This document shows, piece after piece, positions 633 to 15,285 of a DNA stretch of 64,000 nt; within the stretch, counting starts at the first letter, position 1, and each line of letters begins with the position of its first letter. This stretch comes from Bdellovibrionales bacterium (GTDB lineage Bacteria > Bdellovibrionota > Bdellovibrionia > Bdellovibrionales > UBA1609): the NCBI GenBank assembly GCA_027459485.1, contig DAIDIG010000003.1:248001-312000 (forward strand). The letters are read 5' to 3'. The translations under genes were made by a program, and so were the position numbers. A model generated the notes under the pieces. That model had not been told where the DNA came from and ran no database searches. It saw only the letters and a list, made by a program, of their open reading frames with translations.

Positions 633-663
633 CGTCTAGCCGCTTTTGTTTGGGAGGTGGCGC

Positions 664-936
664 TTGCAAGTCATAGTTAAAAGGGGCGCTGATAACAGCT
701 CAAGTCTCAGAAATCTAATTGAGTTTTTGGCGAAGGCTCTTGTCGATTATCCGGAACAAGTTGAAGTGAAGGAAATTCCCGGAGAACAAACGACGGTTTT
801 CGAGCTACGAGTAGCAAAAGGTGACCTGGGCAAAGTTATCGGCAAGCAAGGCAAAAACGCCCAATCCATGCGCACTATTCTCAATGCGGCTAGCACTAAG
901 ATACAAAAACGAACAGTCCTAGAAATCGTCGAATAA
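664..936 (+). CDS. khpA: KH-domain RNA-binding protein KhpA
   Basis: This 90-residue protein is a single type II KH domain with the RNA-binding GxxG loop in GKVIGKQGKN, followed by the conserved helix (AQSMRTILNAA). KhpA proteins are usually 75-90 residues and pair with KhpB/Jag to bind many RNAs, with roles in cell division and envelope control. The start is TTG at 664: GGAGGTGG at 652-659 ends four bases before it, and the longer ATG frame from 646 has no such site. Its usual neighbours rpsP and rimM are not seen here. It marks the last chromosomal gene before the integrated element. Confidence 0.88.
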   Translation: MQVIVKRGADNSSSLRNLIEFLAKALVDYPEQVEVKEIPGEQTTVFELRVAKGDLGKVIGKQGKNAQSMRTILNAASTKIQKRTVLEIVE

Positions 937-1136: not shown

Positions 1137-1478
1137 ATGAAACTTCAACTTCTATCCACTGAAGCCATCGAGACACATTCGCGGGGGCCAAAAAGGCGCC
1201 GAATACGTGCAGCCGATATTTTTAAATCTTGCCCCGCGTGCCATTCAACTGATCTCATCGCGTTCGAAGGCGAAGTGCTCTGCTGTCAATGCCCTTGGGA
1301 TAGTCTTCAGGCAAGCGTTGACACAGGCCTTATGGACTCAGTTTGCGGTCGCCCCGCTCGGCAAGCAAAAAGGCAAGCAAAAAGGCAAACATCAACGACT
1401 GAGAACCCCGCTCTACCCGCTAACAAACCCAATCGGTCCAAAAACATAAATGCCGTTGAGAAAAAAATCACGGCTTAA
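1137..1478 (+). CDS. small zinc-ribbon protein, element-borne
   Basis: The 113-residue protein starts at ATG 1137, with GAAAGGA seven bases upstream. It has a central four-Cys zinc ribbon (CPAC ... CCQC, about residues 32-53) flanked by basic tails (KRRRIRA and a repetitive RQAKRQAKRQ). The ribbon suggests nucleic-acid or protein binding; no family is recognised. It is the first gene of the element and is followed by a second, unrelated zinc-ribbon gene. It may be element regulation or cargo. Confidence 0.6.
   Translation: MKLQLLSTEAIETHSRGPKRRRIRAADIFKSCPACHSTDLIAFEGEVLCCQCPWDSLQASVDTGLMDSVCGRPARQAKRQAKRQTSTTENPALPANKPNRSKNINAVEKKITA
1360..1390 (+). repeat. 12-bp tandem repeat inside the zinc-ribbon gene
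   Basis: About 2.6 copies of GGCAAGCAAAAA stand head to tail. They encode the basic RQAK repeats. Being a multiple of three, copy number could change without breaking the frame. Confidence 0.75.
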
Positions 1479-1500
1479 CAAAACGAAAGGAATAAAATAA

Positions 1501-1710
1501 ATGAATTTTTCAATTTGCCCTCGATGTGGCATCGAAGCTTTCGAGCATTTATCTACGCACTCGCACTGTATTGAGTGTGGATATTCACCACTCGGCGACA
1601 CTGCCGAATGTAAAACGTGGCGACATCTGGAATTTTGCACATCCGACAAATACCCAGGTTTACACGAGCTATGGCCCTGTCATTATCAGTTTCCACGTCG
1701 ACTTTTATGA
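1501..1710 (+). CDS. small zinc-ribbon protein, element-borne
   Basis: This 69-residue protein opens with a rubredoxin-like ribbon (CPRCG ... CIECGYSP, residues 6-30). Further Cys and His residues in the tail may add metal ligands. AAAGGA lies about eight bases before the ATG. The gene sits 22 bases after the preceding zinc-ribbon gene, probably in one transcript. Function unknown; it may be too short for more than binding a partner or nucleic acid. Confidence 0.55.
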   Translation: MNFSICPRCGIEAFEHLSTHSHCIECGYSPLGDTAECKTWRHLEFCTSDKYPGLHELWPCHYQFPRRLL

Positions 1711-1810
1711 GGCCGCTTGATTGCTATGATTTTTATTTATGGAGCATTGGCGAGCTAAAACTCCCGAAAACCCTTGAACCAAACCTTAACTTTTAGAGGA
1801 GAATTCTAAA

Positions 1811-2071
1811 ATGAATGCAAAACCCTTCGACATAATTGTCGCAAAAGAATACCAGACAAAAATTGACGGGAAAACCGTTAAAAGGACCATTTGGAATAGA
1901 GTCGGCTGTGCCTGGCCATCGAGATCCTACGAATCGATTAGCTTTGAGCTCTACCTGATCCCAGGGCAGCGCTATGTGATCCGCCTTAAAGAACGCGAAA
2001 CCGCTGACCTACGAAACGATGACTCAAACACACAAGTGCCAACAACTACCGAACAGACAAATAACCAATAA
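1811..2071 (+). CDS. hypothetical protein, element-borne
   Basis: The 86-residue protein is preceded by a clear AGAGGAG site. The first two thirds read like a small beta-rich fold (alternating hydrophobic residues, ISFELYLIPGQRYVIRL); the tail is a polar Thr/Gln/Asn stretch. This resembles small single-domain proteins seen at the head of conjugation operons, but I recognise no family. It lies 16 bases upstream of the pilin-like gene. Confidence 0.55.
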   Translation: MNAKPFDIIVAKEYQTKIDGKTVKRTIWNRVGCAWPSRSYESISFELYLIPGQRYVIRLKERETADLRNDDSNTQVPTTTEQTNNQ

Positions 2072-2087
2072 ATCGAAAGGACAAAAA

Positions 2088-2360
2088 ATGAACAAACGAA
2101 ATCTATTTTTATTGAGCGCAATTCTTTTTATCTGCCCATTTGCTAACGCCTCGGTTGAATCGTCGCTTATGGGCCTTAAAGACGTGCTTCTCACTTCGAT
2201 TCTGCCGGTCTTTGCCGTTATCGGAATCAGTTTTGCAGCATTTAGCTTTTTTACCGGAAACCCACGAGCCAAAGAACATCTGATGTACGCAATTGCGGGT
2301 GCTGCCATTTGTTTTGGGGCACAATCAATCGTTGATCTTTTAAGTCGGGTGGTGCGATGA
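2088..2360 (+). CDS. virB2: VirB2/TrbC-like pilin subunit
   Basis: A 90-residue protein with a signal peptide (cleavage near ANA-SV, about residue 20) and two further hydrophobic segments separated by a short polar loop (TGNPRAKEHL). This size and topology is typical of VirB2/TrbC prepilins, which form the conjugative pilus. GAAAGG lies upstream of ATG 2088. The stop overlaps the start of the next gene (ATGA at 2357-2360), and the position before VirB3- and VirB4-like genes fits. Assignment is by topology and gene order, not by a conserved motif. Confidence 0.75.
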   Translation: MNKRNLFLLSAILFICPFANASVESSLMGLKDVLLTSILPVFAVIGISFAAFSFFTGNPRAKEHLMYAIAGAAICFGAQSIVDLLSRVVR

Positions 2361-2698
2361 AAACGTGTCCAACAAGTAACATGAACCGCTCCCAATTATG
2401 GGGATTTGAGGTGAGCCACATTGTGATCTCACTTGGCATGCTTTCAGTGTCCGATATTTTTTTAAACATTATCGGCGCTCCACTAATGCTCGCCTGGGGA
2501 TTTGGGCTTCTCACCCTTGCGGGCTTACGATTCGTCTCGCACGGGCAAAAAAACGGGCATCTCGAACTTCTCATGCGGTTCATATTAGAGCCACATATAT
2601 TCTTGGGCCACGGCGGCCGGGTACGAGGTCCAGTAATCCCATTGACTTCGGGGCCAGTAACTTCGTTGACTTTGGCTTCGACTTTGGGGGCACGATGA
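2357..2698 (+). CDS. virB3: VirB3/TrbD-like T4SS membrane protein
   Basis: A 113-residue protein with two closely spaced membrane segments (about residues 20-55) and a longer polar C-terminus. It overlaps the pilin gene and the VirB4 gene by four bases each, so translation is probably coupled. VirB3-type proteins sit in the inner membrane with the VirB4 ATPase and support pilus assembly; in some systems the two are fused. The C-terminal third (Gly/Pro/Ser/Thr-rich) looks poorly conserved. Called from size, membrane pattern and context. Confidence 0.65.
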   Translation: MKTCPTSNMNRSQLWGFEVSHIVISLGMLSVSDIFLNIIGAPLMLAWGFGLLTLAGLRFVSHGQKNGHLELLMRFILEPHIFLGHGGRVRGPVIPLTSGPVTSLTLASTLGAR

Positions 2699-4755
2699 CC
2701 AAGTATTCACTTACAAAACAAGTTCTTGGCACCGAATGGTTAAGTGACGGGGTTGTTACCGCTCAAGACGGCACTCTATTAAAGGCGTTTCAAGTCGAGC
2801 CGCTTACAAGCGGAAATCTCGAGGACGGCTTTAATGGTCCGATCTCCGACAATTTTTTTGCAAAGCTCTCTGAACTTCTCACACGCCTTCCAAGCCATTT
2901 TGATGGCCACGCCATACTTCAACGCCGGCAACTTTCTAATTCCGAAATTGGCGGATTTAAAACAACACTCTACTTTTTCGAAAAAGTTGAAAAGGCCGAA
3001 AGTTATTCCCACATTAATGCGCTACTGACTGAACTTAAAATGGCACCAAAACCGCTCGCGCAAGATTCTTTCGCATTTTTGTTATCTGGCGTATTCGGGA
3101 GCCCCGTCCTGGCCGGCCGATTACCTGATCTCACTTGGGAAAAAGACTCAATCCGCGTCAAAGATCAGGTCATTCGTGCACTGAGCTTAACTGAACTCCC
3201 CCAGGTCACTTGGAAAGGATGCTTTCAGGCAATTTTTGAAGCCCCAAGTGAATTTACATTATCGCTTCGCTTTTTTATACCTGAGCGGACAAGAATAAAG
3301 CGCCAGCTTGAAACCAAACGTCGCGTAAGCCATGCGCTATCAATCACGACCTCGCTTGAAGTTAAAAATATTGAATCTAACTCCGTTCTTCACTCATCAG
3401 AAGAAACTCTAGAGCGAATTCTAATCAACAAAGAAACGCTTTTTGAAATTTCGCTCGGCGTTTTACTCCTCGGCACAAATGCGGACACAATTAGACTTTC
3501 GCACGATCTTGAGCGTGTCGTCGCAGGAATCGGCAATGCCGGCATTTATATCGAGGAGCTTGGGTCTTTACCAGTATTAAGGAGTCATATTCCGGGTAAC
3601 CGTGTGCTCGGCATTCGAAAAATGCCGATCTTAACAGAAAACCTGGCCCACATTTTCCCGCTATTTCACGATTATTCAAGAGCACAAAACGCATCACATC
3701 TCGAACTTCGGTCACGAAGTGGCGAAGTGTCGCACTTAAATTTATTTTCGCGCGAGAATTTAAACTTTAACGCCTTTATTTGCGGAGCTTCGGGATCAGG
3801 TAAATCGTTTTTGATGAATGCAATTTTAACCTCGACGTTGAAAGACGATAAACGCTCAAGACTTTGCATATTTGACGTCGGCGGCTCATATAAGCGCATT
3901 GTCGAATCAAACGGCGGCCAAAGCTTAAGCCTCAGTAGCGCGCAAGCGCGCGCACTCATCGCAAGTTTTGTTCGGATTTTTCCGACCGATGCAAACGGAT
4001 TCTTTCGAACTTTCATCGAAACGCTTTGCGGCTCGGGCAGTCATATTACCCATTCCCACGCTGTCGCAATCGACGATTTGATTCATGAATTGATAGGCGA
4101 ACACCTTAAAATTCGCAGGCTAATAGAGCTTGCCGAAAAGCGACCGGAGCGGTTTTACCATGACATTGCCCACTGGTTAAAACCGCACGTCACATTTGAC
4201 GACGTCGAGGCACGCCCCGATCTCGTTGAAACAATTAAAGGTCAAGTTTCGGCATTTGATTTTAAGGAACTTGATTCCGATCCTGTGTTGCAAAAAACAA
4301 CGATACTACTTCTAACTGAACTTTTGTGGCGTGACCTATCGGCCGGGCGCTATTCGCACACCCTTATAGTATTTGACGAAGTCTGGCGTTTTTTTTCGCA
4401 AAGTAAGTCGTTTTTAGAAGAAATGTACCGCACACTTCGAAAATATAAAGCCGGTATTGTATCCATCACGCAAAGCCTTGCCGACTATGGGGACGAAGCG
4501 TTTGCTAAAATGCTATTTACCAATAGCTATACAAAAATTTTCTTACAAAATGGCGCCGCAGCCGAATATTTGCGAGAAACGTTTGATTTACCGAATTCTG
4601 ATATCGCACGCGCCTTATCTGTTTCATCTAAAAAACCCGATTACTCCGAATTCTTTGTTCTGACTCCGACGATGAGTCAGATCTTTCGACTCTATCCGAC
4701 TGAAGAATTTTACAAACTCGCTAATACCGAAAACATCGCACAAAACCCCAGCTAA
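2695..4755 (+). CDS. virB4: VirB4/TraC-family T4SS ATPase
   Basis: A 686-residue cytoplasmic ATPase that energises pilus biogenesis and transfer. The Walker A motif GASGSGKS is at about residue 364, and the Walker B motif (LIVFDEVW) is at about 560, followed by the arm typical of the family (KYKAGIVSITQS). The N-terminal 350 residues match the less conserved CagE/TrbE/VirB region. Length is somewhat short for VirB4 (usually about 790-850). It overlaps the VirB3-like gene by four bases. This is the firmest marker that the block is a conjugation system. Confidence 0.93.
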   Translation: MTKYSLTKQVLGTEWLSDGVVTAQDGTLLKAFQVEPLTSGNLEDGFNGPISDNFFAKLSELLTRLPSHFDGHAILQRRQLSNSEIGGFKTTLYFFEKVEKAESYSHINALLTELKMAPKPLAQDSFAFLLSGVFGSPVLAGRLPDLTWEKDSIRVKDQVIRALSLTELPQVTWKGCFQAIFEAPSEFTLSLRFFIPERTRIKRQLETKRRVSHALSITTSLEVKNIESNSVLHSSEETLERILINKETLFEISLGVLLLGTNADTIRLSHDLERVVAGIGNAGIYIEELGSLPVLRSHIPGNRVLGIRKMPILTENLAHIFPLFHDYSRAQNASHLELRSRSGEVSHLNLFSRENLNFNAFICGASGSGKSFLMNAILTSTLKDDKRSRLCIFDVGGSYKRIVESNGGQSLSLSSAQARALIASFVRIFPTDANGFFRTFIETLCGSGSHITHSHAVAIDDLIHELIGEHLKIRRLIELAEKRPERFYHDIAHWLKPHVTFDDVEARPDLVETIKGQVSAFDFKELDSDPVLQKTTILLLTELLWRDLSAGRYSHTLIVFDEVWRFFSQSKSFLEEMYRTLRKYKAGIVSITQSLADYGDEAFAKMLFTNSYTKIFLQNGAAAEYLRETFDLPNSDIARALSVSSKKPDYSEFFVLTPTMSQIFRLYPTEEFYKLANTENIAQNPS

Positions 4756-4799
4756 TCTGCCTTTCCCGCACGCTTTTAAAATTTTATTGGGAGACTTTG

Positions 4800-5477
4800 A
4801 TGAAAAAATCAGTTTTAATTTTTTTCTGCATTTTTGCCTTTACACCAAGTGCGCATGCGGATTGGTTCGGTGCTGATCTTGCTTACCTCGCGCAAATTGT
4901 TCAAAACACGCTTGGCACACTTAACGCTCTAAGCGAACAAAACGAGTACTGGAGCGACGATCTCGCCGGCATCAATGACAAAATTAGTCGCCTAAAAACA
5001 ATTGAAAATTTAGTCGAGCCGTCCTCCTGGAGCAAATGGCGGAATCCGAGCGAAGCTCTGAAGCGACTTAAACTCATCTACGACACCATGCCCGAAGAAT
5101 ATCACAATAAAAAGTCTGACCTCATTGAAAACGAGATTTCAGACGCCATGACACTTGTCGCGCAAGTTAGCCCCAATGCGAGGAGTGCATATGAGTCAGG
5201 GCGTGAACTTGAACGCCGTGGGGAATACGTCTCACCTGGAGTTGCCGAGAAGCTAACGGCTTCAGGTATTGGCTCGATGCTTGAGGTGCAGTCGCAAACC
5301 ATGATCCTTGAAAGCCATATCACAAGTCTACTTGCCCAGATGTTAGCAAATGCAAACGAAAAAGAAACGAGGTCTGTTGTATCTCGCGGTAGAGCCTTCG
5401 TGGACGTTTCCAAGAGTTTGAATCCACATAAATCTAGTTTTTCGCGCCAAGTTCTAAATTTTCGGGCGGTGCTATAA
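4800..5477 (+). CDS. VirB5/TrbJ-like exported T4SS protein
   Basis: The 225-residue protein has a clear signal peptide (cleavage near AHA-DW, about residue 21) and a long helical mature region. This fits VirB5/TrbJ proteins, minor pilus or periplasmic components. ATG 4800 is chosen over the TTG three bases earlier, with GGGAG just upstream. Its stop is coupled to the next gene (TAATG at 5475-5479). The family is poorly conserved, so the call rests on signal peptide, helix content and position between VirB4 and VirB6. Confidence 0.7.
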   Translation: MKKSVLIFFCIFAFTPSAHADWFGADLAYLAQIVQNTLGTLNALSEQNEYWSDDLAGINDKISRLKTIENLVEPSSWSKWRNPSEALKRLKLIYDTMPEEYHNKKSDLIENEISDAMTLVAQVSPNARSAYESGRELERRGEYVSPGVAEKLTASGIGSMLEVQSQTMILESHITSLLAQMLANANEKETRSVVSRGRAFVDVSKSLNPHKSSFSRQVLNFRAVL

Positions 5478-6409
5478 TGACTTACCCATCACACAGCACC
5501 CCGAGCATTGGTCCGAAAGTGGCGCACGCCGCCCTTCCAACAATTGAAAACTACGATAAGCTTGTCCCCATCGCGCACGCTCTTTATCAACACACAAGTC
5601 ATCTCGCCTGGCAGATGCTATTGCCACTATTTTTACTCTCGGTTGCAATCGGATATTCAACTGAACTTGGTGTCACGGGCTCGGTCATTGTTCGATTAAA
5701 ACGCCTTGTGCTCGTCATGATTTTACTTGTGGCGTTTCCGACACTAGCCGAACTTTGCCAAAACGTCGGCGTTGAGATTGCAAAATCGATCGACAATATG
5801 GCGGGCATTGACATGATACTTCGCGCAGCCGCCGCTAAAGCGCACGAATATTCTTTTAATTTATCAAGCCTTCTCAACATGGGTAATGACCTCGTGATGG
5901 CACTTTTTGTGACCGGCACCTATATCCTTCTTGTTTTAGCCCGCTATTTTCTCCTCGCTTTTCAGCATTTTTTTTGGCTCGTGCTCGTCACAACTGGCCC
6001 GTTTTTAATTCTTGCTACCCTTTTTGAATCGGCCTCTGGTGTGACAAGGGCACTTTTTAAATCAATGATTCAGGTGTCATGTTGGCCGATCATTTGGGCC
6101 ATACTTTCAGCGTTTTTAAAAGCATTGCCGTTTTCGCACACCTATTACATGGACCCCAATCAGATCACGGTCATTACACTTAATCTCATTATTGCAATTG
6201 CGCTCTTATTTTCGCCGTTTCTTGTTTCGCACTTCACAGAAGGTGTCATTCACACAGGCGCAGGGGAGCATTTACGCCGTCACGCCGTGCGTGCCGCAAC
6301 GGTTGGCGGAGGAAAAGTCTTATTCGTTACAAAATCGGTTGCATCAGCTGCCACTCGTTCAACCCGCGATTTTAATCCCGCTCGCTTTAAACCCGGATCA
6401 AAACAATAA
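5477..6409 (+). CDS. virB6: VirB6/TrbL-like polytopic T4SS protein
   Basis: A 310-residue polytopic membrane protein with about six hydrophobic segments between residues 40 and 255 and a basic C-terminal tail. VirB6/TrbL proteins form the inner-membrane part of the channel and contact the DNA substrate. Order (after VirB5, before VirB9/VirB10) and topology support the call. It starts at the base where the VirB5-like gene stops, implying coupled translation. Confidence 0.8.
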   Translation: MTYPSHSTPSIGPKVAHAALPTIENYDKLVPIAHALYQHTSHLAWQMLLPLFLLSVAIGYSTELGVTGSVIVRLKRLVLVMILLVAFPTLAELCQNVGVEIAKSIDNMAGIDMILRAAAAKAHEYSFNLSSLLNMGNDLVMALFVTGTYILLVLARYFLLAFQHFFWLVLVTTGPFLILATLFESASGVTRALFKSMIQVSCWPIIWAILSAFLKALPFSHTYYMDPNQITVITLNLIIAIALLFSPFLVSHFTEGVIHTGAGEHLRRHAVRAATVGGGKVLFVTKSVASAATRSTRDFNPARFKPGSKQ

Positions 6410-6422
6410 GAGGAAGGTAAAA

Positions 6423-7106
6423 ATGAAAAAGATAATATTGTTCATAGGTCTCATTTTTGAGTCGAATTTGGCGTTTTCACTTTCGCCGGCATCGTTTCCG
6501 GTTTTTTTAAAAGAAGGTTTTAGCACTGTTCTTGAATTTTCCGCGCCGCCGACGGAGGTTGTCTTGGGCGATCCAAGACACTTTATGGTCCAGAAACTTC
6601 AAGACGCGCTTGTCGTAAAGCCGCTTGTACCAAACGCAAGTTCAGACATGTTTGTCTACTTCCGCGCTCTCGAGCCCAGGCTTTTCGTACTCACGGCTTC
6701 AAACAAAGTCACACCAACGTTTTTTAAACGCTTTGGGACTGAGCTCGCGTTTCAAGCACCGCCCCAGGTCTCGGAAATAAAAAAGCGTACTCGGTTTTTA
6801 TATCGCGAGTCCCTTCGAGTTCTATCGGCACGCTTTAGTTCAAAAAAGGACTATTTAACCGTCGCGGCTGAAATTTCGGCCGGGTCCAACCAAATGCTTA
6901 AACCCGCCTGGACGCGAGCGCATCTTTTATTCCACGGCAAATCGATTCTGCCACTTAAACTTTGGTCAGAACGCCGAGAAATTCAAAAGGACTCGCGTGT
7001 GAAGTGCCGATTTATATTTTTAAAGCCAAATCTTTCGCGCCATTTGTGGCAGGTCTTACTCGTCATTCCGCTTTCGAGAAATCGAACCTTGTCGGCGCGT
7101 CTCTAG
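6423..7106 (+). CDS. VirB9/TrbG-like T4SS protein, possibly frameshifted
   Basis: From ATG 6423 (AGGAAGG upstream) the protein has a signal peptide and a beta-rich domain reminiscent of VirB9/TrbG N-domains (EFSAPPTEVVLGDPRHF, then KPLVPNASSDMFVYFRA). Such proteins build the outer core ring with VirB7 and VirB10. The last 45 residues are Arg/Leu-rich and unlike the rest. An overlapping frame at 6962-7162 reads more like protein (VPIYIFKAKSFAPFVAGL), suggesting a frameshift around 6,960-7,000. At 227 residues it is also short for VirB9. The domain call is moderate, the frameshift tentative. Confidence 0.6.
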   Translation: MKKIILFIGLIFESNLAFSLSPASFPVFLKEGFSTVLEFSAPPTEVVLGDPRHFMVQKLQDALVVKPLVPNASSDMFVYFRALEPRLFVLTASNKVTPTFFKRFGTELAFQAPPQVSEIKKRTRFLYRESLRVLSARFSSKKDYLTVAAEISAGSNQMLKPAWTRAHLLFHGKSILPLKLWSERREIQKDSRVKCRFIFLKPNLSRHLWQVLLVIPLSRNRTLSARL

Positions 7107-7127
7107 AACAATTGAAGGGTAAAGAAT

Positions 7128-7967
7128 ATGAAAAATCCAAATTCAAAATTAGAGCGAGCTAAGAAAAAGCTCACAGCCCGCTGGCAAGGGGCTGACATTC
7201 CAGGTTCCGCGCCACGATTTCAGCTATCGCTATTTTCTAAAGATGTTTTTACGTACTTCGCATTTCCGATTCTATGCATAGTCGGATTTAAATCCTGCGA
7301 GCTTTTAATTCACAAGGTGCGCGCCCACCACGAATCAACAACCAGTGATTCGACTTCCGAGCAAGAAAATTACAATTCGCCGCAGTCACAAATAATTAGC
7401 TTCGTTAATTCGCATCCGCGTTCGCGCTATTATGGAATCGCTCGGCGATCTCCTGGCACACTGGTTAAGGTAAGGCTACTAAATGTCGTTGATACTTACG
7501 CAAACGCCCCTGTTGATGTCGAAATTATTGACTCGGGCCTTGGCAAAAACCTCATTGGTTCAACAATTCTTGGAACCGCATCGGGCGAGGACGCTTATCG
7601 TCGAGTCAATATTGAATTTAATATGGTTCGAAGAGCAAATAATCCGGGGAGCGCAATACCGATAAAAGCTCGCGCCCTTAGCCTTGACGGCACGCTTGGG
7701 CTTGCGGCTCAAAAGAAAGACGGATTTTTTGCTAGATCAGCCCTTGATGCCGAAAGTTCAGGCGACAACATGGCTCAAAGTAAAATTGGTAATTCCGGAA
7801 CACTTGACGGCATGATTGCTCGCGCACTGGCGTCAGGGCTTCTTCAGGAGTTTGGTTCAGATAATCGGTCAGAGCAAAATCATTCACAACTTTTGACACT
7901 TAAACCAATGACTGAATTCTATGTTGAACTGACAAGCTATTTCCCGGCCTCAGGCGGCGCAGAGTGA
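7128..7967 (+). CDS. virB10: VirB10/TrbI-like T4SS core protein
   Basis: A 279-residue protein with one membrane segment near the N-terminus (about residues 35-58), a polar linker, and a C-terminal beta-barrel domain typical of VirB10/TrbI (GTLVKVRLLN, NLIGSTILGTA, then NIEFNMVR). VirB10 spans both membranes and gates the channel. It is shorter than usual (about 380-450), mainly through a short periplasmic linker. It follows the VirB9-like gene and precedes the coupling protein. Confidence 0.82.
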   Translation: MKNPNSKLERAKKKLTARWQGADIPGSAPRFQLSLFSKDVFTYFAFPILCIVGFKSCELLIHKVRAHHESTTSDSTSEQENYNSPQSQIISFVNSHPRSRYYGIARRSPGTLVKVRLLNVVDTYANAPVDVEIIDSGLGKNLIGSTILGTASGEDAYRRVNIEFNMVRRANNPGSAIPIKARALSLDGTLGLAAQKKDGFFARSALDAESSGDNMAQSKIGNSGTLDGMIARALASGLLQEFGSDNRSEQNHSQLLTLKPMTEFYVELTSYFPASGGAE

Positions 7968-8021
7968 CAGCGTAATGACCTGCGTTGTGATGGCCCAATA
8001 ATCGAAGGAGAAAAAACGAAA

Positions 8022-9608
8022 ATGAACACTCAAAATACAAATGACACTCACCAAAACCGAAGTCTTGGGATGCTTTTAACCGGCATAATGGGTCTTGTGG
8101 CTTATGAATTTTATTCGTCGCTTGATACGGCCGAGAAAATCTTATTTTGGCTTATGATGCCAGCAGTCGGCTTTCCGTTGGGCGTACTTCTTTTTGATCG
8201 ATATTCTAAATGGGGAAAAGCAAAAAGAAAGCGAATCGAAACGATAAAAGAAATTCCGCCGGAGCTACTTTTATCATCGCCTACGAGTATTTACTTAGGC
8301 CATGATTTGAATCTAGATATTGATGTTTATTTGCCAGACGAAGTTCGTTGCCGCCACGTTCACCTTGTTGGCGGCTCTGGATTTGGCAAAACCAACACAC
8401 TTCAAAATTTTATCAAGCAAGATTCAGATCGTGGACTTGGCATGATCATTCTTGATGGCAAAGGTGAGATTTCTTTTTTAAATTGGCTAAAAAGTGTCGT
8501 GCCAAAAAACCGGCTTTGCGTATTTGATCTAAGTGATGAAAAAAGCATGGGTTATAATCCGCTCTCGGACGGCTCGCCGCTTGAAGCCGCCCAAAGGCTT
8601 TACTCGTCTCTCACCTGGAGTGAGCCGTTTTACGCCGCGAAAGCGCGGGCAGCGCTTCAAACTATTTTTCAAAACCATTTTAAACTAAAAAAGAAGAATC
8701 CTTCGATCAAGGAATTGGCCGAATATCTTGATACTCCACAAAGTTACAGTTCGATTGCGACATCGCCCAGTTATCCGCCAAAGCTTGCAACGGAAGATTA
8801 TATGGGAATCGCCGGGCTTCGCGATCAAATAAATTCGCTTTGCACGGGGCACTTGGATAATATTTTATCTCCGAGTGATCGCTCAGAAATTAACTTGGGG
8901 TCAACACAAGACGGTAAAGTCTTATACTTTAGACTTCAAAGTTCACTTGCAACGCAGATTGCGTCAAATACTGGAAAGCTTCTTATTAACCACATCAATT
9001 TTTTGGCCGGAACGGCGCATAGAAACGGGCAGGCAAACAAAGCCAAACTCGTTCCAACCTATTTTGACGAGTTTGCGACGTTTGTGTGCCCCGAATTTGC
9101 AGACCTTATTTCAAAAGCCAGGTCGGCGGGCTACGCCCTTCATTTTTCCCACCAAAGTAAAGGGGATCTTGAGGACGTATCAAAAGGCTTTCTCGGGCGA
9201 ATTACCGATAACTCCGCGACCAAAATCATAATGCATATAAATGATCCCGATTCAGCCGATTTTTTTGCTAAATCCTTTGGCACATCCAAATACCAAAAAG
9301 TCACCCAGCGAATTACAAATGCCAAAGACGCCGATGACGCCGAACTTGTTGGTGAGGGGTCGAGTCGCGAAGCCCATAGATATAAAACATCTCCTGATGA
9401 ACTGAAATCACACCCGACAGGAGTGGGTTCGGTTCTTATTGCCCACGGCAAAGACACGGCTCATGGAGCATCTGATTTTTTTAAAATTAGGTTTCCGCCA
9501 ATACCAAAAGAGGTCGAAGAATCTAAGTCTCAAACTGAGACAAATGCTAACCTAAAGTCCATTAATAACTCAGACATTATTAAAATTGATATTTATGATA
9601 AGATATAG
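8022..9608 (+). CDS. VirD4/TraD-family conjugative coupling protein
   Basis: A 528-residue DNA-translocating ATPase that brings the substrate to the channel. Two N-terminal membrane helices (about residues 15-70) precede Walker A (GGSGFGKT, about 117) and Walker B (PTYFDEFA, about 347). The C-terminal motor region carries the conserved HQSKGDLE and DNSATKIIMH segments. GAAGGAG stands upstream of the start. A coupling protein argues for conjugation rather than only protein secretion. It is followed directly by the mobile mystery pair. Confidence 0.9.
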   Translation: MNTQNTNDTHQNRSLGMLLTGIMGLVAYEFYSSLDTAEKILFWLMMPAVGFPLGVLLFDRYSKWGKAKRKRIETIKEIPPELLLSSPTSIYLGHDLNLDIDVYLPDEVRCRHVHLVGGSGFGKTNTLQNFIKQDSDRGLGMIILDGKGEISFLNWLKSVVPKNRLCVFDLSDEKSMGYNPLSDGSPLEAAQRLYSSLTWSEPFYAAKARAALQTIFQNHFKLKKKNPSIKELAEYLDTPQSYSSIATSPSYPPKLATEDYMGIAGLRDQINSLCTGHLDNILSPSDRSEINLGSTQDGKVLYFRLQSSLATQIASNTGKLLINHINFLAGTAHRNGQANKAKLVPTYFDEFATFVCPEFADLISKARSAGYALHFSHQSKGDLEDVSKGFLGRITDNSATKIIMHINDPDSADFFAKSFGTSKYQKVTQRITNAKDADDAELVGEGSSREAHRYKTSPDELKSHPTGVGSVLIAHGKDTAHGASDFFKIRFPPIPKEVEESKSQTETNANLKSINNSDIIKIDIYDKI

Positions 9609-9645
9609 CTGTTCAAGAAACATGATGAATGATAAGTTAAATATT

Positions 9646-10149
9646 ATGAAAACAAGTAAAAGGAACCTTCTATTACAGAGGCAAATTATTGAGAAAAAAG
9701 TCAAGCCGTGGGTTCGTTTGCGTGATAGTTCACCCCCGAAGTCTGGCTGGATAAGGGCAATAAGGGGCGCATTAGGGATGAATACGCGCCAACTCGCAGA
9801 GCGTGTCGGCGTCAATCAGCCTGCCATTACACAACTCGAAAATCGCGAGGCGACCAAAAAAGTGACCCTTGACCTTTTAGACCGAGTCGCATCGGCAATG
9901 GACTGTAAACTCGTTTATGCAATCGTGCCAAATTCGCCATATAAAACCTTAGACGAAATTGTTGATGAGCATGCCAGCCGGTCTGCCGCCAAGTTGATTC
10001 GATCGGTGGGTCACTCGATGCAGCTCGAAGCACAAGGGCTTGATAACGACGATATCAAGCAACAAACAATGCGACTGACACACGAACTAAAATCAAAAAT
10101 TGACTCTCGAATATGGGACGAGCGTTCAAAAAAGAAAGGAGGCAAATAA
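9646..10149 (+). CDS. mobile mystery protein A (XRE-type regulator)
   Basis: The 167-residue protein has an XRE helix-turn-helix (MNTRQLAERVGVNQPAITQL, about residues 45-64) between a basic N-terminus and a helical tail. This architecture, directly followed by a Fic protein, matches mobile mystery protein A (TIGR02612), known to occur with protein B on mobile elements. The start could also be ATG 9622 or 9625; 9646 is chosen because the family begins with the basic helix. A role as DNA-binding repressor or antidote of the pair is inference. Confidence 0.85.
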   Translation: MKTSKRNLLLQRQIIEKKVKPWVRLRDSSPPKSGWIRAIRGALGMNTRQLAERVGVNQPAITQLENREATKKVTLDLLDRVASAMDCKLVYAIVPNSPYKTLDEIVDEHASRSAAKLIRSVGHSMQLEAQGLDNDDIKQQTMRLTHELKSKIDSRIWDERSKKKGGK

Positions 10150-10152
10150 ACA

Positions 10153-10749
10153 ATGGCGGATTTAAAATTTATATATCCGCCAGGTGCGACCCCGCTTGAT
10201 CCCGATGAATCGGCTGGCCTAATACCTGACTACGTTTCAACTCAAGGTGAGCTCAACGTGCTAGAGCAAGAAAACATTGTCGAAGCGCACGCTTGGGCAA
10301 GAAAGAAAGTGCATGGCGATATTTTAAACGTTTCGTTTGCCCTCGAACTTCACAAACAAATGTTTGGGCGCGTTTGGAAATGGGCAGGCCGACCGCGCGT
10401 TTCAAATAAAAACATCGGCGTCAGCCACGAACAGATTAACGCGAAGCTCTCGGCACTCCTTAAAGACACGGACCACTGGATAAAAAATCAAACGTATAAC
10501 TGGGATGAGATCGGCGCACGATTTCATCATCGACTCGTATCTATCCATGTCTTTTCAAACGGCAACGGCCGTCATGCTCGTCTTATGACCGATATTCTGC
10601 TTGAAAAATACCGCCAATCTCCGTTTACCTGGGGTGCCACTCAGAGTTCACTTGAAGTCCAAAGCACCGTTCGAAAAAACTATATTTCCGCTTTAAAATC
10701 CGCCGACCAGGGTGATTTAAAAGAACTTATCCGCTTTGTCAGAAGCTAA
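10153..10749 (+). CDS. mobile mystery protein B (Fic family)
   Basis: A 198-residue Fic/DOC protein with the active-site motif HVFSNGNGRHAR at residues 132-143, complete with the catalytic His and the anion-binding GNGR. Fic proteins usually transfer AMP or similar groups to hydroxyl side chains. The partner gene ends three bases upstream, giving the TIGR02612/TIGR02613 pair. I see no obvious inhibitory (S/T)xxxE(G/N) helix within this protein. The pair resembles a toxin-antitoxin module, but its function is not settled. Confidence 0.88.
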   Translation: MADLKFIYPPGATPLDPDESAGLIPDYVSTQGELNVLEQENIVEAHAWARKKVHGDILNVSFALELHKQMFGRVWKWAGRPRVSNKNIGVSHEQINAKLSALLKDTDHWIKNQTYNWDEIGARFHHRLVSIHVFSNGNGRHARLMTDILLEKYRQSPFTWGATQSSLEVQSTVRKNYISALKSADQGDLKELIRFVRS

Positions 10750-10750
10750 A

Positions 10751-10768
10751 GTCGGCTGTGCAGCCGAC
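10751..10768 (+). terminator. short hairpin after the Fic gene, possible terminator
   Basis: GTCGGCT and AGCCGAC form a perfect 7-bp stem around a 4-base loop directly after the fic stop codon. No T-run follows, so a Rho-independent terminator is only weakly supported; an mRNA-end stabiliser is equally possible. Confidence 0.35.
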
Positions 10769-10870
10769 GTAAGCACACAACTTTAAATCCAGGCTTTCCC
10801 GCTCACAAATTGCCAAAAAATCAAATGGCGCGAAGTTGCAATTGCTGCGCGCTCGACAAGGAGAAAATCT

Positions 10871-11200
10871 ATGAAAACACCGTATCGAATCGTATTCGCC
10901 GCATTCCTACTTTCAATAACCGCTTGTTCAACTTTCAATCGATCTGTCCTACTTGGCGGCGCACTTGGTGCAACTGCCGTCGCATCTGCCGTCTCAGCTG
11001 GTGAACATTCAGCAGGTATCACGCCGAAATCAAATGATATTACAAGCGCCGCGCTCGTCGGTCTCGGGCTTGGTGTCATTACTGCGTCGATTATTCAAAA
11101 TGCCAACTCGCAAGACGACGAAAGTAAGCAATCTGGTCCAAAGATGTACTTTGGCGACTTGCCGCCAAGCCCATTTGTGTTCCCTCGGTCGCAAAACTAA
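10871..11200 (+). CDS. small lipoprotein, element-borne
   Basis: A 109-residue protein with signal sequence and lipobox (ITAC, Cys at about residue 17), followed by a Gly/Ala-rich hydrophobic segment and a short polar C-terminus. AAGGAG precedes the start. In conjugation loci, small lipoproteins often act as VirB7-like stabilisers or entry-exclusion proteins; nothing in the sequence decides between these. It stands apart from the virB block, after the Fic gene. Confidence 0.6.
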   Translation: MKTPYRIVFAAFLLSITACSTFNRSVLLGGALGATAVASAVSAGEHSAGITPKSNDITSAALVGLGLGVITASIIQNANSQDDESKQSGPKMYFGDLPPSPFVFPRSQN

Positions 11201-11212
11201 GGAGGATTGAAA

Positions 11213-11539
11213 GTGAAAAACCGAATACAGTTTACGCTCACTGATGAAACGCTAAAAATCGTAGAAGATACGTTCAAAGAGGTGACCCAAAACTTTAAAA
11301 CTGGCTCGATCAACTATTCTGATGTCATAAACGAAATGATTCTCACCTCAAGGGTTGACGTCAAATCGCTTCAACATAAGAAGACAAATTTGCGTCGCTC
11401 GCTTCGCGTGATGGCAAAAGATCCAAGTATTGATTATGAGGCCGCTATCGAATTGCTAAACAAAATGAAGCCAAAGCCGGCCAAGAATAGCTCGAAAGCA
11501 AAAGTCGAGACGGAGGCGCAAAGTGAAAGCACCGAATAG
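11213..11539 (+). CDS. small accessory DNA-binding-like protein
   Basis: The 108-residue protein starts at GTG 11213, seven bases after GGAGG (11201-11205); a TTG at 11207 is too close to that site. The N-terminus alternates like a ribbon-helix-helix strand (NRIQFTLTDETLKIV), followed by helices and a Lys-rich tail. That layout is common in mobilisation accessory proteins that sit on oriT, but no family is confirmed. Its end overlaps the start of the next gene by 17 bases, implying a shared operon. Confidence 0.5.
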   Translation: MKNRIQFTLTDETLKIVEDTFKEVTQNFKTGSINYSDVINEMILTSRVDVKSLQHKKTNLRRSLRVMAKDPSIDYEAAIELLNKMKPKPAKNSSKAKVETEAQSESTE

Positions 11540-12407
11540 GCCGTTTGGCCGTGGTCCACAAATCCTGTTAACGCTTGCTGAACATGGGCCGCTTTCGGCT
11601 CGCGGACTCACCAGAATGCTCACTCCCACCATTCAACGAAAAAAGCTAAACGAGGCGTTGGGCCGTCTTCTTAGGCGGAATTTGATAATCAAGCTACACG
11701 CCAGGCTATTTGGCGATGGCGGCATCTTTTACCAGATCAACCAAAACCCAAAAGTGTGGGGTGAAGTTTCGCTAATGACTGGCCTTGCAACAAAGTCACT
11801 TTTTCAGCCGCAGTTCCGATCCGTTGAGCTTATCCATTCAGAAGCCTGCGCCATTTGGGCGACGGCGCTTGAACGGCTAAACCCGCACTCGATTTTGCTT
11901 CGCGATTTTTCGCTTCGCAACTCACGGATGGCCAGGCAAATCCTACTTGAGGTCGATAATGACATCGATTTGATTCCAGATTTGTTGATTGCAGTTCTAT
12001 CTGACGACAGAAAGACGCTTGTGTCAGTTGCCGTCGAGATCGAGAGATACATGAAAACGGATTTGCGAACACTAATAAAGCTTAACCGCTTTGCTGCAGG
12101 GTCACGCCTTGATGGAGTGATTTGGCTTTGCGATAACGACGGGATTTCTGAGCGGCTAAAGCGGCTATATAACACTCGCGTGAAGGATCGTGCGCACAGG
12201 ATAAATAACTACGGGAGTAACTTCATGCTGTTTCAAGATGAATGTTTTCCGGCTTCGATACCGACCTTTAGTTTGCAAAATGCCGAAAACAAATCCGTCG
12301 ATTTTAACTTGTGGATTAGGGAACTTCAGTCGAAGAATTTGCATGAGCGCTTTGATGCCAAATTCAATGACCGTGGTGCGGACCACGGACGTTTACAATA
12401 CGCGTAA
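11523..12407 (+). CDS. winged-helix protein with PD-(D/E)xK-like core, possible replication/relaxation protein
   Basis: The 294-residue protein opens with a winged-helix region (ILLTLAEHGPLSARGLTRML, residues 14-33). A middle domain follows with IPD at about 158 and VAVEIERYMKT about 20 residues later, as in restriction-like PD-(D/E)xK nucleases. This arrangement resembles the Replic_Relax family of mobile elements. GTG 11523 follows GGAGG with good spacing. Because no classical relaxase is seen and a large palindrome lies just downstream, it is the best candidate for the DNA-processing protein of this element. The family call is from memory of patterns and uncertain. Confidence 0.5.
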   Translation: MKAPNRPFGRGPQILLTLAEHGPLSARGLTRMLTPTIQRKKLNEALGRLLRRNLIIKLHARLFGDGGIFYQINQNPKVWGEVSLMTGLATKSLFQPQFRSVELIHSEACAIWATALERLNPHSILLRDFSLRNSRMARQILLEVDNDIDLIPDLLIAVLSDDRKTLVSVAVEIERYMKTDLRTLIKLNRFAAGSRLDGVIWLCDNDGISERLKRLYNTRVKDRAHRINNYGSNFMLFQDECFPASIPTFSLQNAENKSVDFNLWIRELQSKNLHERFDAKFNDRGADHGRLQYA

Positions 12408-12455
12408 ATCTGCTAGTCCGGAAGAAAACTAAAAGAAGTTTAGATGTTTAACCAC

Positions 12456-12586
12456 TCCCGCCAGTCCGCCAGCTTCCCCTCTGAAGCTCCGTGACCCCTC
12501 CCTACCTACATTACTAAAGTAATGTAGCATTTCATGCAGCGGTAGAAAGGGGTCACGGAGACAGGGAAGCTGGCGGACTGGCGGGA
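12456..12586. repeat. large nested palindrome, candidate oriT or replication site
   Basis: Perfect 23-bp arms at 12456-12478 and 12564-12586 enclose perfect 13-bp arms at 12487-12499 and 12548-12560. Inside, a 10-bp hairpin with an AA loop lies at 12506-12527. The asymmetric loop continues with about 20 unpaired bases. The outer arms contain GCC/GGC steps (CCGCCAG...). The position between the putative DNA-processing gene and the excisionase gene fits an origin of transfer or a regulated recombination site. No T-run makes a simple terminator unlikely. Confidence 0.85.
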
Positions 12587-12609
12587 AAACCAAAAAGAGG
12601 AATAAAAAA

Positions 12610-12894
12610 ATGAAGCAGTTAGTCCATACAAAATCATTTGTGTGTCCTGCTGAGTCAGCTATAAGATCAAACCCGGTTAGTCAGCTCTTTGAAAAAAAAA
12701 TAGCTCGTGAACATGCTTTACTGGAGAAACCGAGATGGTTCACAACCAGTGAAGCAGCTCAATATTTAAGGGTCTCGGTCAATAGTATAAAAACTATGGT
12801 GTACCGAGGTAAGATTCAGGTTTATAAGCTCGGAAGGCGTAATCGCTTTCTGCGCGATGACCTCGAGCGGCTGATCGTACTTCCAAAACATTAG
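12610..12894 (+). CDS. excisionase-like HTH protein
   Basis: The 94-residue protein carries a MerR-like/HTH_17 helix-turn-helix at residues 40-90 (FTTSEAAQYLRVSVNSIKTM, then GRRNRFLRDDL), as in excisionases and small element regulators. It has a roughly 38-residue polar N-terminal extension. AAGAGG lies upstream. It ends ten bases before the integrase gene, the classical xis-int order, so a role in directing excision or regulating int is likely. Confidence 0.8.
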   Translation: MKQLVHTKSFVCPAESAIRSNPVSQLFEKKIAREHALLEKPRWFTTSEAAQYLRVSVNSIKTMVYRGKIQVYKLGRRNRFLRDDLERLIVLPKH

Positions 12895-12904
12895 GAGGTA
12901 GAAA

Positions 12905-14158
12905 ATGCCGCAAAAACAAGTCTTATATAAAGGAATAAAAAAGCTCGTCGTCACAGTAGCCGTATCGTGCAAGGATCATCCCTCCGGACGATTCCAGCTC
13001 AAACGGACGTATGATAATATCGACGTTAATTCTCCGAAGGCAAATTCGCTTGAACGCGAACTTCTTCGCGCGGCGGAAAGGCAAAAGGCGTTGCGCGAAC
13101 ATCAGGGCAAAACATGGGAAGTTTTACTGAATTTGTACGGCGACCATACCAATACGCTAGTCCGCAACGGTGAATGGTGCCAGAGCCCTCAAACCTTCGA
13201 TGAATCACTGCGGTCAATGTATAAATGGACGAAGCCTTGGTTTGATCTCATCGCGGCTCAAATCAGCGCGTATGATGTGACAAGGCTACTCCATAACATG
13301 AAGGACGAAGGTTGCGCTGATGTGACTTTGCAAAAAATGCGAGCCAATATCAAAAAGGTATTCGAGTTCGGTTTTTTGTATGAGCACGTGCGCGGCATAA
13401 AGCAAAGTCCGACGACTGGCGTGACAATCGCCAGCCGCCGCCGAATGCGGACTGAAATTTTACGCGACGACGAGATCGTAAAACTCCTCTCCTACGCTAA
13501 GGAATACGAACCGACTTGGTATTTTATTTGGGCATTTGCAGTGTATACAGGTTGCCGAAATGGCGAGCTTTACGCACTAAAATGGTCAGATATAAATTTT
13601 GAAGATCGTATGATCACAGTCCAACGGTCCTATAATAAAAAATATAAAGTCGAAAAATCGACCAAGACTGGCGAGTGGAGGCACGTTTCGATTTGCCCAC
13701 CACTTTGGGAAATCGTACAGGAGTTAAAACGGATGCACGACCACGATGTCGAACGCGGCGAATGTAACCACGTCGGCTACGTTCTTCCGCGCCCCGGTTC
13801 CTGGCAAAATGGCGAACAAGCCAGTAAGCTTCGTAAGTTTTGTGAGGAGATCGGCATTACGCCCGTTTGTTTTCACACCCTTCGAGCGTGCTTTGCCACG
13901 GAACTTCTAAAGCGTGGCGTTGCCGTTCCAAGCGTGATGCGGGCCGGCGGTTGGACAAGCGTAAAGACGATGATGCACTACGTGCGTTTATCAGGAATGG
14001 ATGACAAGGGGATCACCGATCCACTTGATTATCGTTCACCTGATCCGGTCGAAGCGAACAAGAAGTTAATGGCCGCAGTCGGAGAAAAGTTTGAGGGCGT
14101 TCACGAAGCTGTGGTAATTCCGCTTATGAGCAGAAAATTGCCAAGTAGCTTGAGGTAG
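12905..14158 (+). CDS. int: tyrosine-recombinase integrase
   Basis: A 417-residue integrase. The N-terminal half holds an AP2-like arm and a SAM-like core-binding domain; the catalytic domain follows from about residue 195. Active-site residues are visible: Arg218 (TGCRNGEL), a Lys in the beta hairpin (STKTGEWR), His324 and Arg327 (HTLRA), Trp350 in the second His position (AGGWTS), and the nucleophile Tyr359 (MHYVR). The enzyme should be active. GGAGG stands before the ATG. It is the last gene of the element, next to the presumed attachment site. Confidence 0.93.
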   Translation: MPQKQVLYKGIKKLVVTVAVSCKDHPSGRFQLKRTYDNIDVNSPKANSLERELLRAAERQKALREHQGKTWEVLLNLYGDHTNTLVRNGEWCQSPQTFDESLRSMYKWTKPWFDLIAAQISAYDVTRLLHNMKDEGCADVTLQKMRANIKKVFEFGFLYEHVRGIKQSPTTGVTIASRRRMRTEILRDDEIVKLLSYAKEYEPTWYFIWAFAVYTGCRNGELYALKWSDINFEDRMITVQRSYNKKYKVEKSTKTGEWRHVSICPPLWEIVQELKRMHDHDVERGECNHVGYVLPRPGSWQNGEQASKLRKFCEEIGITPVCFHTLRACFATELLKRGVAVPSVMRAGGWTSVKTMMHYVRLSGMDDKGITDPLDYRSPDPVEANKKLMAAVGEKFEGVHEAVVIPLMSRKLPSSLR

Positions 14159-14226
14159 CTCGAAAGTACCGACCCTGGAAACCTCTAGGGTCTAAGTGCT
14201 TAAATCGACTTACCCAGTTGCGATGC

Positions 14227-14393
14227 AACCAACTTCAGACACCCATCGCATCTCATCGTTACTCCTCGCTCGCTTCGCTGCGACATGCGATTACGCATGC
14301 CTCACTTCGTTCACTCGTCGCGCCTCGATCTGCTCGGGTCTCTTCGTTGGCACTGAAACCGTTGGTGGCGGCGATGGGTATCTGAAGTTGGTT
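14227..14393. repeat. long inverted repeat downstream of the integrase
   Basis: Arms at 14227-14249 and 14371-14393 match at 22 of 23 positions; the one mismatch would be a G:T pair in RNA. They enclose 121 bases rich in CTCGCTCGCTTCGCTGCG-like motifs. It could be an integrase arm-site array, a strong RNA structure, or a small non-autonomous element. Confidence 0.85.
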
Positions 14394-14421
14394 TTACTTG
14401 AGTGAATTTCGGACTTATCTC

Positions 14422-14461
14422 GAACCTGGAGGTTCACAAAAGTAGCAGGATGCTACTTTTG
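14422..14461 (+). terminator. two adjacent hairpins after int
   Basis: GAACCT-GG-AGGTTC (14422-14435) is followed by CAAAAGTAGCA-GGA-TGCTACTTTTG (14437-14461), a perfect 11-bp stem whose right arm ends in TTTT. The second looks like a bidirectional terminator closing the element and insulating the minus-strand gene that converges from the right. Confidence 0.5.
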
Positions 14462-14523
14462 CGCGCGAGCCCTGAGCGCGAGCGAAGGGTCGAGGCCAAG
14501 GATGGCCGAGACAAATCCTCCGA

Positions 14524-15285
14524 CTACTCAGCCCTTTTCATCGAAAATTCCGCAACCACCGGCAAGTGATCAGACAGGCGCGCCCAGAGTTTTTTGTGCG
14601 GGTGCCAGGCGGAGGCGGCGGCTAAATTGCGAAAATAGATTCGATCAAGCGGCAACACAGGCAAAAGACTCGGATACGTGAGCGCGTAGCGCCCGTTCAC
14701 CGCCCGATAAGCGTCGCTGCAACCGAGTTTGTTCAGCAATGGCTCACTCGCGGTTTTGTGAACGTCGTTGAAATCGCCGGCGAGTATGAGCGGCGCCTCT
14801 TGTGGCACGTGACTGACGACCCGACTCACAATCGCATTCATTTGTCTTTGGCGGTAAGCTTCGAGAAGCCCGAGATGCACGCAAATGGCGTGAAGAGGCT
14901 CACTCGATCGATCGATTCGAATGGTCGCATGCAAAAGCCCGCGGCTTTCGTAAGACGACTCAGAAATGTCGATGTTCTCTGAAGATAAAATTTCGTAACG
15001 GCTGAGAATGGCGTTGCCGTGATGCCCGTGAGGGTAAATCGCGTTTTTGCCGTAGATAAAATGCGGCCACAACTCCTCGGCCAAAAATTCAAATTGCGTC
15101 AGATCGGGCCAATCGGCAATTTTACCTTCGTGGCCCCGGTGCGCCCCGTGAATCTCTTGAATGAACACGACGTCGGGGTCAACCTTGCGAATCGCATCAC
15201 GCATTTGATGCAAAGTGAACTTTTTGTTTCGCCAACCGAAACCCTTGTGGATGTTGTAGGTCAAGACGCGAAGGGACGGGTTCAT
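14524..15285 (-). CDS. endonuclease/exonuclease/phosphatase-family hydrolase
   Basis: The 253-residue protein has the EEP fold motifs in order: LTYNIHKG at the start, DPDVVFIQEIHG (metal-binding Glu), HAICVHLGL, LAGDFNDVH, and a final LSDHLPVV with the catalytic Asp-His. No signal peptide. It overlaps the cardiolipin synthase gene by four bases (ATGA), and this hydrolase-plus-PLD pairing is frequent in bacteria, suggesting work on phospholipids or nucleic acids. Substrate cannot be read from sequence. Confidence 0.88.
   Translation of the reverse strand: MNPSLRVLTYNIHKGFGWRNKKFTLHQMRDAIRKVDPDVVFIQEIHGAHRGHEGKIADWPDLTQFEFLAEELWPHFIYGKNAIYPHGHHGNAILSRYEILSSENIDISESSYESRGLLHATIRIDRSSEPLHAICVHLGLLEAYRQRQMNAIVSRVVSHVPQEAPLILAGDFNDVHKTASEPLLNKLGCSDAYRAVNGRYALTYPSLLPVLPLDRIYFRNLAAASAWHPHKKLWARLSDHLPVVAEFSMKRAE

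Follow-up and report, generated by a model that had tools for sequence, protein, structure and literature searches.

How a conjugative element could transfer without a relaxase is the question raised by a 64,000-nucleotide stretch of a Bdellovibrionales genome (GenBank assembly GCA_027459485.1, contig DAIDIG010000003.1, positions 248,001 to 312,000 of the forward strand; the whole stretch is called the window below). At about 1.1-14.5 kb the window carries a compact Bdellovibrionota element in which a first-pass annotation had found a type IV secretion system (T4SS), a coupling protein, xis and int but nothing assignable to a known MOB class of relaxase, leading it to propose a transfer system with an unusual relaxase. 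We hold with considerable confidence that this unit is an integrative and conjugative element (ICE) comprising a divergent MOBC relaxase, an adjoining palindrome and a reduced VirB2-3-4-5-6-9-10 channel. As expected of an ICE, relaxase, coupling protein, VirB4, further T4SS genes and an integrase lie within one unit, and this compact mobile element is probably capable of transferring a copy of itself to other cells. The idea of an unusual relaxase fell once relatives were included in the profile searches, which returned a known class; the apparent exception, a conjugative element devoid of a relaxase, is thereby removed. What emerges is a compact, newly defined MOBC element family whose channel has neither VirB8 nor VirB11, and a candidate core shared by MOBC origins of transfer (oriT) across phyla, not a new relaxase class. 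No described Bdellovibrionota MOBC ICE was found in the openly accessible literature searched.

The candidate relaxase

The 294-residue protein encoded at 11523-12407 (plus strand, as are all window genes described here) had been singled out as the element's sole DNA-processing candidate, with a winged helix and a PD-(D/E)xK-like domain, and profiles, motif and structure prediction all bear this out. At the level of the family, NCBIfam NF041423 (MobC_subf, MobC family replication-relaxation protein) matches 16 of 18 members, at best with 2.8e-8, and Pfam PF13814 Replic_Relax matches 7 of them, at best with 1.1e-4, every hit at E<=1 being counted. Comparison by hhalign gives a probability of 99.3 over 231 columns for the family against 19 Replic_Relax proteins from Bdellovibrionota, 94.9 against pAM373/TraX-type enterococcal relaxases and 90.9 over 41 columns against CloDF13-type MobC; the negative controls (fourteen other families of the element, and reversed profiles) never exceed 1.8. 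With only the catalytic half compared, the probability is still 98.4 against the local Replic_Relax proteins and 88.6 against the enterococcal TraX-type relaxases.

The conserved motif PD...A-x-E-x-E-x3-K (D153, E172, E174 and K178) is kept in nearly all members and aligns with FEIELTMKT in pAM373 and, as VAFEVERTVKS, with CloDF13-type MobC. In the AlphaFold2 model (pLDDT 84.5) a winged helix comes first and an alpha/beta domain follows, in which D153 opens one strand and E172 and E174 lie on the neighbouring next strand. The N-terminal winged helix, as in TraX, is supported by this model and by the fold search. MOBC relaxases have been reviewed as PD-(D/E)xK nucleases, and TraX of pAD1 has a winged helix (PMC12857230). 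Because the family profile matches, the hhalign comparisons, the aligned motif and the predicted fold agree with this description, the protein is classed from its sequence as a divergent MOBC (PD-(D/E)xK, 'replication-relaxation') relaxase with predicted nicking activity. A viral fold search returned uncharacterised phage proteins of similar length, for example Bacillus phage G Gp146 (E 1e-5).

Tyrosine-recombinase relaxases also exist (PMC12857230), and the element's tyrosine integrase might act as relaxase in the way that TcpM (MOBM) does for pCW3, with the MOBC-like protein reduced to a DNA-binding accessory. One related unit (L030) fits such an arrangement, its MOBC-like protein having lost the PD and ExE residues while int is retained. 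This division of labour is nonetheless highly improbable: Int resembles an ordinary integrase, judged from its Phage_integrase match and xis neighbour and without comparison to TcpM itself, likeness between the integrases of the family is often no more than about 30%, and the MOBC motif persists through nearly the whole family. The palindrome described below, moreover, is of the kind seen on MOBC plasmids.

The palindrome beside the relaxase gene

The large palindrome noticed next to this gene in the first pass is real. It spans 12456-12586, immediately 3' of the relaxase gene, and is kept there in 15 elements. Its two-tier hairpin consists of variable outer arms (12456-12479 on the left, pairing with 12563-12586 on the right), a 13-bp inner stem (CTCCGTGACCCCT at 12487-12499 and AGGGGTCACGGAG at 12548-12560) and an asymmetric seven-base bulge on the left. 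Across the 15 elements 99.5% of the inner-stem cells are paired, with compensatory two-sided changes in 7 of the 13 pairs. The covariation score is reached by 0 of 500 shuffles, and slid versions of the stem drop to 33-53% pairing. For the outer arms, the arm's own partner is the best pairing in 9 of 15 elements and the second or third best in the rest.

The inner-stem core is TGACC/GGTCA (TGACT/AGTCA in two elements), and many members have it as TTCCTGACCA/TGGTCAGGAA. Cores of this kind recur beside other MOBC relaxases. Eight enterococcal MOBC plasmids, pAM373 among them, were examined; in each, the longest inverted repeat found near the relaxase gene is two-tier with a TGACCA/TGGTCA core, and 7 of the 8 carry it as TTCCTGACCA/TGGTCAGGAA. 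Among 21 other Replic_Relax loci, TGACCAC...GTGGTCA hairpins occur in 5, where 0.07 would be expected, and 8 contain an inverted repeat whose arms include GGTCA. Another T4SS element in the same genome, L096, encodes a MOBC-like protein followed by a CGTGACCACC/GGTGGTCACG palindrome. The core palindrome is absent from 49 kb of chromosome flanking the window element. CloDF13 carries GTGGTC...GACGGGG twice, in opposite orientations, upstream of mobB (0.03 expected by chance), and is nicked at GGGTG|GTCGGG, the bar marking the nick. In pMET1, which is related to CloDF13, two nick (nic) sites are reported inside an inverted repeat (PMC2262945), and for the MOBC element ICEKp1 the listed nic is GGTTG|GTCGCG (PMC7755788). 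By analogy with the listed MOBC nic sites, a nick next to the GGTCA core of the window palindrome, at G|GTC in either arm, is possible; the candidate upper-strand nick falls at 12551/12552 in the inner right arm and its mirrored lower-strand counterpart at 12495/12496 in the inner left arm.

A very stable hairpin between two genes might instead be a transcription terminator or another structured RNA, a reading to which we attach little weight. Two-sided changes affect 23 cells of the inner stem against a one-sided change in 1, unlike an RNA, which tolerates G-U pairs, and the near absence of such one-sided changes suggests selection on DNA. The GGTCA core is also found again next to the MOBC relaxases of three phyla, and in enterococci it lies upstream of the gene. 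Since the core accompanies other MOBC relaxases and is missing from the flanking chromosome, the palindrome is most simply read, and very probably serves, as the oriT of the neighbouring relaxase, with mirrored candidate nick sites.

A broader proposition is that a single conserved type of oriT, in which each arm of a palindrome carries a (T)GGTCA-type core and the nick sites are accordingly two and mirrored, serves the MOBC relaxases of all three phyla, Bacillota, Pseudomonadota and Bdellovibrionota; we regard it as evenly balanced between true and false. The shared core may already have been noticed in the primary MOBC literature. If the proposition is true, it offers a sequence rule by which the oriTs of this class can be located, and a hint at how a relaxase that resembles restriction enzymes cuts and reseals DNA although no covalent link to it has been detected; no covalent intermediate has been observed in the MOBC reaction, the mechanism of which is an open question (PMC12857230). 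In the window family, such an oriT would feed a T4SS able to operate with neither VirB8 nor VirB11. The GGTCA palindrome is a directly testable cis-site prediction for the MOBC class.

Several results speak against the account of the unit as an ICE with a MOBC relaxase and an adjoining oriT. Searched singly against Pfam, NCBIfam, PDB and plasmids, the 294-residue protein gave nothing significant and stayed below every curated cut-off; single-sequence scans miss divergent MOBC enzymes. The PDB fold search returned winged-helix regulators and weak restriction-enzyme matches only, and neither it nor the viral fold search returned a named MOBC structure. A direct-repeat binding site for the relaxase, as reported for pAD1 (PMC12857230), was not seen in the window element. 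The proposed ends at 1137 and 14461 showed no convincing direct repeat flanking the element, attachment (att) sites were not found, and a search for an empty site and a tRNA target yielded neither.

A reduced channel, conserved as a unit

As the first pass had suggested, the gene order was sought in related genomes, and it recurs across the phylum. Fifteen genes keep their order in more than 12 Bdellovibrionota genomes, at loci spanning many genera and families (several loci are kin, and their number is not a count of independent events; some end at contig ends). The order runs from a Zn-ribbon gene and a small-protein gene through virB2-3-4-5-6-9-10, the coupling-protein gene, an accessory slot, a lipoprotein gene and another small-protein gene to the gene for the 294-residue type of protein, the palindrome, xis and int. 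Identity to the window proteins among relatives is 26-54% for the 294-residue type against 62-78% for VirB4; despite this low identity, the former holds its position ahead of the palindrome and xis/int. A second copy of the family in the same genome (L017, G000:C1:455500-475400) encodes a counterpart 55% identical to the 294-residue protein; its integrase differs from that of the window element, and its accessory slot is occupied by a Schlafen/AlbA_2 gene. All but one of the named contigs bearing the element are Bdellovibrionota or Oligoflexia; the exception, L064 (CALQIT020000006.1), is titled Streptomyces griseus, carries a Bdellovibrionota-type element and is probably a mislabelled metagenome-assembled genome.

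The first-pass assignment of a compact conjugative element was confirmed by direct matches for VirB2 (2091-2360; Pfam TrbC 1.1e-7, conserved), the VirB4 ATPase (2695-4755; TIGR02746 3.4e-39, TIGR00929 2.4e-36), the VirD4-type coupling protein (8022-9608; TrwB_AAD_bind 1.1e-12, TraG-D_C 2.3e-10), the excisionase Xis (12610-12894; HTH_17 2.2e-13) and the tyrosine integrase (12905-14158; Phage_integrase 1.6e-19). Its full VirB2-6, VirB9 and VirB10 set stands in part. The VirB9-like protein (6417-7106) is supported through its family, of whose 12 members 5 match CagX (best 1.5e-4), and the VirB10-like protein (7128-7967) is placed by position and by weak TrbI matches in 2 of 13 members (best 0.0026). 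VirB3, VirB5 and VirB6 are assigned from gene order and weak matches: the VirB3-like protein (2357-2698) keeps its position between virB2 and virB4 and has no family match, the VirB5-like protein (4797-5477) combines conserved order with a weak DUF4141 match, and the VirB6-like membrane protein (5477-6409) matches TrbL at 0.035. Likeness to the T4SS proteins of L096 further backs the last two (25% identity, 9e-16, to its VirB5; 33%, 5e-42, to its VirB6).

No VirB8 or VirB11 gene lies within the element, as had been stated, and related loci show an identical gene set, so that neither the element nor its relatives form a canonical Gram-negative VirB/VirD4 system, in which both are present. Most Gram-negative T4SSs require all 11 VirB proteins (PMC12857230), and the element may have lost VirB8 and VirB11 and, no longer self-transmissible, rely on another T4SS such as the genome's second one, which encodes a VirB8. 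Such dependence is unlikely. The reduced set is identical across many genera and its reading frames are long and intact, unlike decay, and the F system likewise has no VirB11 (PMC12857230). The sole VirB8-type match of the genome sits in that second, different T4SS element, L096 (G000:C3:24000-43900), which spans about 4.9-17.8 kb of its locus and comprises VirB2, a 918-aa VirB4-type protein, VirB5, VirB6, VirB8, VirB9, VirB10, a coupling protein, a serine-recombinase-like gene and the MOBC-like protein (14173-14982), with the GGTGGTCACG palindrome at about 15020-15112.

For an ICE with its own channel, transfer could proceed as follows. Xis and Int would excise the element, and the relaxase would bind the two-tier palindrome through its winged helix, perhaps assisted by the small protein encoded directly upstream. 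The PD-(D/E)xK site would then nick one strand beside the GGTCA core, and the VirD4-type protein would hand that strand to the VirB2-3-4-5-6-9-10 channel, in which the small lipoprotein possibly takes the VirB7 role. VirB8 and VirB11 would be either dispensable or borrowed, VirB8 being present in the genome's other T4SS element.

The upstream small protein (11207-11539), kept in 16 loci, is a candidate relaxosome accessory factor; it has no convincing family match, and Pfam gives no support for a ribbon-helix-helix family. Before it lies the small conserved protein with a lipoprotein-type signal (10871-11200), possibly VirB7-like, with an invariant Cys19 in 16 members. At the other end, the first conserved gene encodes a small Zn-ribbon-like protein (1501-1710; same-place homologues in relatives, zinc-ribbon matches weak) and the next a small conserved protein of unknown function (1811-2071; homologues in the same position in related elements).

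The accessory slot, between the coupling-protein and lipoprotein genes, holds varying cargo in the window (9643-10749) and in L017, L019, L020, L024-L028, L031 and L034: a helix-turn-helix (HTH)/Fic pair, a PIN domain, GNAT with a partner, HTH with DUF6932, or Schlafen/AlbA_2. In the window the slot is filled by the known 'mobile mystery' pair, protein A (HTH, 9643-10149; TIGR02612 8e-41) and protein B (Fic, 10153-10749; TIGR02613 8e-70, Fic 2.2e-10). The cargo looks like toxin-antitoxin or defence genes. The relative L020 (G181) is rearranged at about 6.8-10.1 kb, its virB9/virB10 and coupling-protein pieces pointing in the opposite direction. L018 (about 1.7-4.3 kb) and L030 (about 0-4.1 kb) have a relaxase-type gene, palindrome, xis and int with no T4SS genes on the contig, and are possibly mobilizable satellites. 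Three khpA-like genes occur in the genome, at window 646-936, directly adjoining the element, and at G000:C3:231534-231773 and G000:C9:93278-93511.

Relation to known MOBC systems

Close to the window family stand the Replic_Relax proteins (PF13814) encoded by other elements of Bdellovibrionota, which have the same two domains and motif (the hhalign probability of 99.3 given above) but form a separate family, and PF13814 does not detect the window protein. MobC, as encoded by CloDF13 and by the Klebsiella plasmids related to it, shares the motif PDxL...AFEVER.xKS with the window family, and the MOBC systems of CloDF13 and ICEKp1/pMET1 share the GTGGTC nic-type core with the element. CloDF13 is mobilizable only, unlike the window element with its own T4SS genes, whereas ICEKp1/pMET1 carry VirB1-11, including the VirB8 and VirB11 that the window element lacks (PMC2262945). 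In this group the oriT lies upstream of mobB, while the candidate oriT of the window element lies 3' of the relaxase gene. In the CloDF13 record (L056, NC_002119.1), mobC is annotated as fragments only (6469-6963) and PLSDB calls the plasmid non-mobilizable; the gene is intact in Klebsiella relatives.

TraX of pAD1 and Orf8 of pAM373, from enterococcal pheromone plasmids, resemble the window relaxase in their winged helix and PD...ExE..K nuclease domain, although sequence identity is very low. Their plasmids likewise have a two-tier palindrome with a TGACCA/TGGTCA core beside the relaxase gene. The enterococcal systems are plasmids with the palindrome upstream of the gene, whereas the window element is integrated and carries its palindrome on the 3' side.

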